Assembly (NCBI RefSeq): GCF_017901175.1
Contig: NZ_CP072793.1
Location: 1,550,001 to 1,614,000, forward strand
From: Thiothrix unzii
GTDB taxonomy: Bacteria; Pseudomonadota; Gammaproteobacteria; Thiotrichales; Thiotrichaceae
Length of the DNA: 64,000 bases
Reading direction: 5' to 3'
Part shown: piece by piece, positions 16,450 to 22,799 of the stretch
Position numbering within the stretch: the first letter of the stretch is position 1
Layout: each line of letters opens with the position of its first letter
Notes under the pieces: generated by a model
Databases searched by the model: none
What the model saw: the letters and a program-made list of their open reading frames with translations, nothing else
Told to the model about the DNA's origin: nothing
Translations under genes and position numbers: made by a program

Positions 16450-16474
16450 AAACGTACTTACGTAAAAAATACTA
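16450..16474 (+). repeat. Left 25-bp inverted repeat flanking the DUF3987 gene
   Basis: AAACGTACTTACGTAA (16450-16465) plus NNN and ATACTA (16469-16474). The same sequence occurs inverted at 17917-17941: the first 16 bases are identical, three differ, six are identical again (22/25). The core ACGTA-CT-TACGT is itself palindromic, as for a dimer-binding site. It lies 92 bases before the DUF3987 start in an AT-rich stretch (16430-16566). Confidence 0.75.
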
Positions 16475-16566
16475 TTAACTTTTAAAACAGTTAGTTATAC
16501 TGATAATAGTTGCATTTTTTAGTAAAATTATTTACATACTTAGGTCATTAACGGAGAACACTCGAT

Positions 16567-17862
16567 ATGAGTAACGTCGTCCGCTTACACGATAACAGTG
16601 CGCACCACACCATTGAGGTTGAAGAAGTACCTTCAGAATTTCCTGTGCCTGATTCCGGGTGTTACTACGGAATTGCCGGACGTTTTGCTCAAGAGGCTTG
16701 TGCGCAGTCAGAAGCTGATCCAGTCGGGGTTTTGATGCATCTGTTGACGTGGGCTGGGGCGTATTTCGGTAATCGTGCCGTGTTGCGTTTAGGTGATGTG
16801 GAAGCTCCACCGCGTTTGTTTTGCGTCACCGCTAGTTCAGCCGGTGGCGGTAAAGGTACAGCCGCCGCGCCAGTAAGAAAACTGATGCGTGATTACGTCG
16901 ATGTGCAATTGCGGCGCATGGGTTTGTCGCCTGCGTTATACCGCGATGGGCCGATGTCGAGTGGGGAAGGGCTGGCATGGGCGGTTCGTGACCCGGCAGA
17001 TACCGAAGACGAGGATGGCAATCCGACTGACAAAGGTATTCCAGACAAACGTTTAATGATTTTGGAAGAAGAATTTGCGGCGGTGCTACAAGCAGCACGA
17101 CGCGAAGGTAATACGGTATCAGCCGCGATCCGGCGTTTTTGGGATACCGGCAACTTTTCACCGTTGACCAAAAATAACCGGGTAACTGTAACAGATGCGC
17201 ACGTGTGTTTTGTGGCGCACATTACCTACGAAGAATTGGTGAAACGCTTGGAGCAAAGCGAATACGCCACTGCTTTAGCCAGCCGGATTTTGTGGGTTTG
17301 CGTGCGTCGCCCGAAAATTGTCGCGATTCCTGAAAGTATTCCTGTGGGGCGAATGCTGAATTACGCCGATGAGATTGCTAAAGCCATCCAATTTTCTTCC
17401 GAAACCAATGAGTTAAGTCTCACTTCAGAAGCGTTAACGGTTTGGAGTACTTTGGCGATTTCACTCGCTAAAGCCAATACACCGATGTCAGAACGTTCGC
17501 GTATGCAGGTATTACGCATCGCTTGTATTTTCGCTCTCCTGGATTGCACGGCACAAGTGGAAGCACATCACCTGCGAGCTGCGGCGCATTTATGGGATTA
17601 CTGCTTGGGTAGTGTGGCGTACATTTTTGAAGGTGAGCAGAACGAAGATGCCAACAAGATTTTGGCGGCATTACGTAAACACGGTGGGTTAACTACCACG
17701 CAGATTCGGATCAATGTGTTCCAGCAAAATATCAAATCAGCGACGATGAATACCTTGCTTAAGTCATTGGAAACACAAGGAAGAATTCGTCGGAGTACGC
17801 GTCACCGTAATGACGGGCGCAGTGGCAAACCCGCAACGGTGTTCGAGTTAGTGAAGCACTAA
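16567..17862 (+). CDS. DUF3987-like P-loop protein, solitary
   Basis: 431-residue soluble protein resembling DUF3987/YfjI-type domains, which occur in primase-helicase proteins of phages, plasmids and integrative elements. Visible: an atypical Walker A SSAGGGKGT (90-98, Gly in place of the usual Ser/Thr after Lys), an acidic Walker B-like RLMILEEEF (162-170), and a probable C-terminal winged helix (about 365-431, with TTTQIRINVF and RIRRSTRH). No primase, integrase or phage gene adjoins it. It stands between two core genes with AT-rich flanks carrying a 25-bp inverted repeat, suggesting an inserted cassette. Ribosome site GGAG precedes the ATG. Function unknown; DNA processing is a guess. Confidence 0.65.
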   Translation: MSNVVRLHDNSAHHTIEVEEVPSEFPVPDSGCYYGIAGRFAQEACAQSEADPVGVLMHLLTWAGAYFGNRAVLRLGDVEAPPRLFCVTASSAGGGKGTAAAPVRKLMRDYVDVQLRRMGLSPALYRDGPMSSGEGLAWAVRDPADTEDEDGNPTDKGIPDKRLMILEEEFAAVLQAARREGNTVSAAIRRFWDTGNFSPLTKNNRVTVTDAHVCFVAHITYEELVKRLEQSEYATALASRILWVCVRRPKIVAIPESIPVGRMLNYADEIAKAIQFSSETNELSLTSEALTVWSTLAISLAKANTPMSERSRMQVLRIACIFALLDCTAQVEAHHLRAAAHLWDYCLGSVAYIFEGEQNEDANKILAALRKHGGLTTTQIRINVFQQNIKSATMNTLLKSLETQGRIRRSTRHRNDGRSGKPATVFELVKH

Positions 17863-17916
17863 ATACGTTAACTAAAACTTTATATAAAAATCATAAGTAA
17901 ATAATTTAATTGAATT

Positions 17917-17941
17917 TAGTATAAATTACGTAAGTACGTTT
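17917..17941 (-). repeat. Right 25-bp inverted repeat flanking the DUF3987 gene
   Basis: TTACGTAAGTACGTTT (17926-17941) with TAGTAT (17917-17922) on its inner side; the inverted partner of 16450-16474. It begins 55 bases after the DUF3987 stop. No obvious target-site duplication borders the pair: the bases just outside (tatt on the left, tcta on the right) do not match. Confidence 0.75.
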
Positions 17942-22290: not shown

Positions 22291-22430
22291 GTAAAACTAC
22301 CTGTGTTATGCGTGCCTCCCTATAGGTGTTAGGAACTACATAACACTATTATTATGTCTATTTGACATAATATGTATTAGGCGAAATCAAGGATAGAGAG
22401 AATGGGGTGGGTGACAGAACATTAGTGGTG

Positions 22431-22799
22431 TTAGTAAGTAGGATTCTGTGCGGGTTGTTTGATGAGATCGCCCATGACCTCTTCCAGAAACTGGCGGATG
22501 CGAGCTTGTTGTTCACCAGTAAATTGCAAGCCAACACCGGCTGGTGTGCCGCGCTGACCTTTGCCTCCGGTAATCCAGACAACTCTTCCGGGAATCAGTA
22601 GACGCTTACCTTCTTCGATTAGACGCAGTTGCAGCACAATATCATCATGCAGCGAAAACCGCTCATGCGTAGGCACAAAAACGCCACCATTTTTAATAAA
22701 CGGCATGTAAGTAGCATGTAGCGAGTGCTTATCGGGTAAGGTTAACGAAAGATTGCGCTTAACGTTACTGTCGATACTGCCGCCTTCGGGCTTTTCCAT
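22431..22799 (-). CDS. pilZ: PilZ-domain protein (type IV pilus type)
   Basis: 122-residue PilZ protein at the end of the mltG-tmk-holB run, its conserved position in Gammaproteobacteria. Core sheet about 10-115, with NGGVFVPT (37-44) where c-di-GMP-binding PilZ proteins have D/NxSxxG, and no clear RxxxR upstream. That matches the PilZ subclass needed for type IV pilus assembly, which does not bind c-di-GMP well. A 55-base AT-rich gap separates it from holB. Confidence 0.82.
   Translation of the reverse strand: MEKPEGGSIDSNVKRNLSLTLPDKHSLHATYMPFIKNGGVFVPTHERFSLHDDIVLQLRLIEEGKRLLIPGRVVWITGGKGQRGTPAGVGLQFTGEQQARIRQFLEEVMGDLIKQPAQNPTY

Follow-up and report, generated by a model that had tools for sequence, protein, structure and literature searches.

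DUF3987 proteins are common helicase-like components of mobile elements, and no experimentally defined origin for them was found in the literature searched. A helicase role has been predicted for the domain, which in primase fusions is accompanied by a winged helix at the C-terminus (PMC5862659). Satellite replication is supported by the PICMI prim gene, searched for by means of DUF3987/DUF5906 profiles (PMC10803314). PICI origins are located directly 3' of rep, where an AT-rich region has a set of iterons on either side (PMC6092414). In SaPI Rep and Cch2, the C-terminal domain recognizes repeats downstream of the gene (PMC7581432).

Here, a single DUF3987 gene of Thiothrix is compared with these systems. 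The window referred to below is the whole stretch of DNA that was analysed, 64,000 nucleotides in length. The fold and winged helix of the protein, the conservation and phasing of its sites, their autoregulatory placement, the terminus location and the iterons of distant relatives were each worked out by computation. The favoured explanation, to which we assign a probability of roughly 0.55, is that the gene encodes a retained, vertically inherited initiator helicase of the satellite type (PICI/SaPI Rep), accompanied by two mirror-image origin-like modules.

The unit and its predicted protein

An earlier note on this DNA described a lone DUF3987 gene boxed by inverted palindromic repeats. This description was confirmed, the outer 15-bp sites being identical at 15/15 positions. 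The repeat pair is real but had been undersized, with an inner site missed at each end, and there are four sites forming two modules. The order at each end is outer site, AT-rich spacer, inner site, and the two ends are mirror images. The features of the unit are given below in window coordinates.

16451..17940, + strand: whole unit, the gene with two mirrored two-site modules
16451..16465, + strand: outer left site, palindromic, AACGTACTTACGTAA; 14-15/15 against the consensus in 11 of 12 carriers, 12/15 in G014
16466..16531, no strand: left AT-rich spacer, 83% AT; ACGTA-to-ACGTA spacing 82 bp
16523..16528, + strand: likely -10 hexamer TAAAAT; TATAAT in four relatives
16532..16543, + strand: inner left site TTACATACTTAG; overlaps the likely transcription start
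16567..17862, + strand: DUF3987 gene, 431 aa; predicted MCM-like AAA+ domain at about 34-357 and C-terminal winged helix at 360-428
17859..17870, - strand: inner right site CTAAATACGTTA, which is TAACGTATTTAG on the - strand; overlaps the stop codon
17871..17925, no strand: right AT-rich spacer, 89% AT; spacing 71 bp
17926..17940, - strand: outer right site AACGTACTTACGTAA; matches the outer left site throughout (15/15)

The two outer sites, which are 15-bp inverted palindromes, are the sole exact copies of AACGTACTTACGTAA in the genome. The search for further copies of the core, suggested in the earlier note, gave no occurrence of the 12-bp core ACGTAMKTACGT in the 3.7-Mb genome beyond these two sites. 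Three outer-site matches with at most two mismatches were found in the window against 0.24 expected, and none of 100 shuffles reached three; together with the uniqueness of the core, this excludes chance as the origin of the repeats. When a repeat search extended the inverted repeats, they reached 61 nt with 72% complementarity, much of which is due to AT-rich composition.

The claim that the locus holds neither a transposase nor an integrase was borne out, and the neighbours scanned for domains were housekeeping genes, with no primase partner of the DUF3987 gene among them. No flanking direct repeat or target duplication was found around the unit. An insertion sequence was rejected because the only matches in the protein were to DUF3987 and a winged helix and none was to a transposase. 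REP-type palindrome dispersal was also rejected, there being no dispersed copies.

The protein scored 38.5 bits with Pfam DUF3987 (PF13148), above the curated cut-off of 27, over residues 161-354. The AlphaFold2 model (pLDDT 87.5) placed a winged helix at the C-terminus, residues 360-428. All 50 of the 50 PDB matches listed by Foldseek were chains of MCM-family helicases (best E 1.8e-9), and VIA-align gave a Z of 18.6 over 270 residues. A sequence search of the PDB returned no significant match, NCBIfam returned none and PADLOC an insignificant hit only, and only a few distant sequence relatives occurred among phage and plasmid records. Across 48 sequences, K96 of the P-loop, E167 and E169 (in LMILEEEF), R240 and R310 show little or no variation, and the two arginines probably correspond to the MCM arginine finger and sensor 2. 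The predicted protein is an MCM-type AAA+ helicase with a winged helix, for which we infer DNA binding and ATPase/helicase activity.

Inheritance and site conservation in Thiothrix

Protein searches covered 40 related genomes, including 16 Thiothrix genomes. The DUF3987 gene was present in 12 of the 16, in one copy each and at 76-100% identity; within the 40 genomes it was found in no other searched genus of the family, and a 34% relative was found further off. It adjoins aspS in all 12 carriers, some of which have an extra gene between, and rlmKL flanks the other side in 11, with dnaG-rpoD there instead in G014. The earlier note had named such conservation beforehand as evidence against its proposals, and the comparison across the genus largely found it, with gene and repeats beside aspS in 12 of 16 genomes. 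The gene tree is congruent with a species tree built on MoxR and DUF58. The dN/dS of the gene is 0.01-0.05 and, between G000 and G003, is similar to that of aspS and below that of rlmKL. The gene is inherited vertically under strong purifying selection. It is not essential, since four Thiothrix genomes have lost or lack it; in G011, the sister of G015, the gene was lost and insertion-sequence debris lies beside aspS.

These results bear on the suggestion in the earlier note that the unit is a minimal transposon or cassette mobilized in trans through its inverted repeats. Such two-site inverted ends do resemble those of a transposon, and G008 has an extra right-type end without a gene, but the unit sits at one fixed locus in single copy, its tree follows that of the species, selection on it is strong, and it comes without a transposase, target duplication or dispersed copies. 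The extra modules described below also differ from the local unit in spacer sequence. The idea is very improbable and, in view of the vertical inheritance and fixed locus, was rejected.

Other genes were observed at the locus in some genomes. An Lcl_C/DUF1566-type lipoprotein gene adjoins rlmKL in several of them (L016, L021, L022, L075), and in G005, which is without the unit, a gene of this type directly abuts aspS. A 314-aa tyrosine recombinase (PF00589) lies between the unit and aspS in G001, G006, G008, G010 and G015 (L018-L022). In front of it lies a palindromic core, AACTTCCGATAA...TTATTCTCGGAAGTT, and it has paralogues elsewhere in some genomes. This recombinase was considered as a mobilizer of the unit and rejected, as it adjoins the unit in these five genomes only, has a palindromic core site of its own and, at the applied cut-off, has no match in the genome of the window.

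Flank alignment of the 12 carriers gave four sites in each, some of the right-hand ones degenerate, with the inner site TTACGTAYTTAG on the left and its inverted version at the stop codon on the right. The outer motif was found with at most one mismatch in 11 of the 12 carriers (it is weaker in G014) and in none of the non-carriers. Mean identity between lineages was 88% for the outer left site and 82% for the inner left site; it was 40% for the spacer, where shuffled spacers gave 34%, and 26% for the DNA outside. The gene of G007 terminates earlier, at a TGA, yet its inner right site is preserved intact, so that coding does not account for this site.

On the left, outer and inner sites are separated by 82-83 bp in some carriers and by 72-73 bp in others; the right-hand distances are 70-72 or 81-82 bp, with 89 bp in G015, whose outer site is damaged. 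These distances differ in steps of a full turn of the helix; a Rayleigh test gave R 0.82 with p about 1e-5, a significance inflated by shared ancestry. The spacers are 77-91% AT across carriers. A -10-like hexamer (TATAAT, TATACT, TAAAAT or TATAAA) starts 9-11 nt upstream of the inner left ACGTA in most carriers. The inner left site hence overlaps the likely transcription start, which implies autorepression, and the left module would, with good support from the sequence, autorepress the gene.

Under the favoured explanation, a satellite initiator helicase would have been stripped of its primase and integrase, and its origin-like module doubled around the gene. The winged helix at the C-terminus would bind ACGTA-type sites. 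Protein bound at the outer and inner sites, which share one helical face at a distance of 7-8 turns, could bridge them and bend the AT-rich spacer between. Protein on the left module would cover the promoter and repress the gene, and the MCM-like ATPase ring might melt or encircle AT-rich DNA.

Part of this pattern would also be expected of a domesticated ATPase that serves an unrelated purpose, such as defence against satellites or phages or a stress response, and uses its four sites only for looping repression. The overlap of the inner left site with the likely transcription start, the helical phasing of the outer site with the inner one and the lack of a primase nearby suit such an orphan, and the insignificant PADLOC hit leaves room for an undescribed defence gene. 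Autorepression alone explains neither the complete module downstream of the stop codon nor the gene-less modules past dif in four genomes, and the catalytic residues of a helicase have been kept; we consider this reading unlikely. The earlier note fared better with its other suggestion, a protein with its own paired sites, for example an initiator or a repressor. This fits the predicted initiator-type fold and winged helix, the restriction of strong sites to gene carriers and the position of an inner site across the likely transcription start. Against an initiator stand the composition of the site sets, each a single palindrome or half palindrome rather than a PICI-like multi-copy iteron array, the missing primase partner, the general lack of a mirrored upstream module in the relatives searched, the dispensability of the gene in four Thiothrix genomes and the presence of far-side modules in four genomes only.

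Location at the chromosome terminus

The earlier note placed the unit correctly between rlmKL and aspS and missed a dif-like site nearby.

22360..22387, - strand: dif-like site ATTTCGCCTAATACATATTATGTCAAAT, 4.4 kb from the unit

Cumulative GC skew in the window peaks at 22465. The polarity of GGGNAGGG (KOPS) is one way in 6/6 copies left of 21.2 kb and the opposite in 6/6 copies right of 23.1 kb. These three sequence signals, dif-like site, skew peak and KOPS switch, place the chromosome terminus within the window. The distance from dnaA to the unit was 0.475-0.497 of the chromosome in the seven genomes with one main contig, so the unit lies opposite dnaA. The dif pattern gave exactly one site in 14 of the 16 genomes, and in G011 no match with three or fewer mismatches. 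Eleven carriers have the unit at 4.4-6.2 kb from dif; in G001 the distance is 14.9 kb. In the non-carriers G005 and G013, aspS is also near dif, and the terminus position may therefore be mere inheritance of one insertion.

Modules without a gene were located on the far side of dif in four genomes.

L066:2610 (G008): 25 kb beyond dif; exact outer site, inner partner at 72 bp
L261:6700 (G010): 26.7 kb beyond dif; spacing 72 bp, 86-90% AT
L263:6670 (G006): 26.7 kb beyond dif; spacing 72 bp, 86-90% AT; degenerate
L278:7292 (G001): 27.7 kb beyond dif; from weight-matrix scan

An unbiased genome search yielded one extra exact outer site, that of G008, on the side of dif opposite the unit; the chance of its falling within 25 kb of dif is about 1%, and no module was present at the same gene in the 15 other genomes. 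The modules of G010, G006 and G001 came from a weight-matrix scan beyond dif, and the G010 type was sought near dif and in a 1.2-Mb sample, so that only the G008 module is free of bias. In 1.2 Mb elsewhere, from three genomes, there were no paired modules and one weak lone site. The extra modules have motif and spacing in common with the local unit, but not spacer sequence, and the far-side spacers of G008 and G010 are unrelated to each other. The left module of the unit has one orientation and the right and far modules the opposite one.

As the modules lie at the replication terminus beside dif, the terminus is the likely place of action. The favoured initiator helicase could act there in local (backup) initiation, or as a barrier or organizer for arriving forks; such a terminus role is hypothetical. 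A narrower reading is that of a fork trap or terminus organizer, recruited from a satellite initiator, whose site-bound protein halts or slows forks around dif. The short distance between unit and dif in 11 carriers (14.9 kb in G001) and the further module 25-28 kb across dif in four genomes speak for it, as do the site in the gene's own promoter, known also for tus and rtp (PMC10331603), the winged helix, shared with RTP, and the plasmid origin hypothesized for the Tus system (PMC10331603). We nevertheless regard it as doubtful, since the MCM-like main domain is unrelated to Tus or RTP, the module orientations around dif do not make a clean inverted trap and most carriers have no far-side module.

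More broadly, and tentatively, a domesticated MCM-like satellite initiator and its origin-like modules may work at the terminus around dif, through fork arrest, terminus-specific initiation or fork rescue. Alongside Tus and RTP, this would make a third kind of terminus system and be the first to derive from an initiator helicase. The Thiothrix case suggests that a host can keep such an initiator genus-long, at the terminus and with its sites under selection; bacteria may gain terminus systems in this way.

Distant relatives and comparison with known systems

The relatives compared were proteins of viral contigs, with 26-36% identity to the window protein, and those in G035, G232 and G290. Where the surroundings were read, the context was satellite-like, with an integrase, an AlpA-like protein and a zinc-finger/Toprim primase, these names being given by reading and not by profile. 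Many relatives have two inverted arrays of short iterons directly after the DUF3987 stop codon (L099, L103, L104, L108, L112, L124, L131, L069, L070 and L072). In L099 the arrays are TGCGAAATAAGCGAAAGATGCGAAA ... TTTCGCTTTTTTCGCTTTTTTCGCA, the first of which overlaps the stop codon, as in Thiothrix. TACGTA-type repeats, whose core is common with Thiothrix, follow the stop codon immediately in L116 and L119. In blind scoring, inverted repeats with a score of at least 15 were found in 15 of 42 DUF3987 3' flanks versus 0 of 210 3' flanks of other genes (Fisher p 1.9e-13), with controls from the same loci, a few loci that are near duplicates and, in L116 and L119, a scored repeat further downstream.

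The paired iterons in these satellite-like elements, whose arrangement agrees with that published for PICI/SaPI origins, are predicted to be the replication origins of the family. With origins predicted 3' of many DUF3987 genes, the family becomes testable. As a rule, a search with the iteron arms gave no second module upstream of the gene in the relatives. In L099, a near-identical inverted iteron pair occurs at 1255-1339, 3.8 kb upstream of the 3' pair, and may be a second origin or a regulatory region. Among the viral contigs there were no free elements with the two-site module; 77 single 15-mer matches were seen and may be due to chance.

Judged from its sequence, the Thiothrix unit resembles Tus-Ter and B. 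subtilis RTP in its terminus location and in having a site within its own promoter, and RTP also in its predicted winged helix. It differs from both in the unrelated fold of its main domain, and fork arrest in Thiothrix is only conjectural. With the DUF3987 helicases of mobile elements (PrimPol families, PICMI prim) it has the Pfam domain, a predicted helicase role and a C-terminal winged helix in common; those helicases, unlike the Thiothrix gene, occur in primase fusions or operons on mobile elements. The Cch (DUF927) and Cch2 proteins of SCCmec are comparable as hexameric helicases of the self-loading type that are thought to be initiators, and the repeats bound by the C-terminal domain of Cch2 are likewise downstream of the gene. 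Unlike the Thiothrix unit, Cch and Cch2 are on a mobile cassette with recombinases, have direct-repeat sites and belong to different sequence families.

Compared with the rep-ori of PICI and SaPI (SaPIbov1 Rep, Gram-negative PICI), the Thiothrix protein is DUF3987 and not DUF927 or Primase_Cterm, each site set holds one palindrome or half palindrome in place of an iteron array, and a mirrored second module precedes the gene. The Thiothrix unit is without an island, primase or integrase, and is vertically inherited at the terminus. Its likeness to these systems lies in the predicted helicase with a C-terminal DNA-binding domain and in the two site sets that flank AT-rich DNA immediately 3' of the gene.
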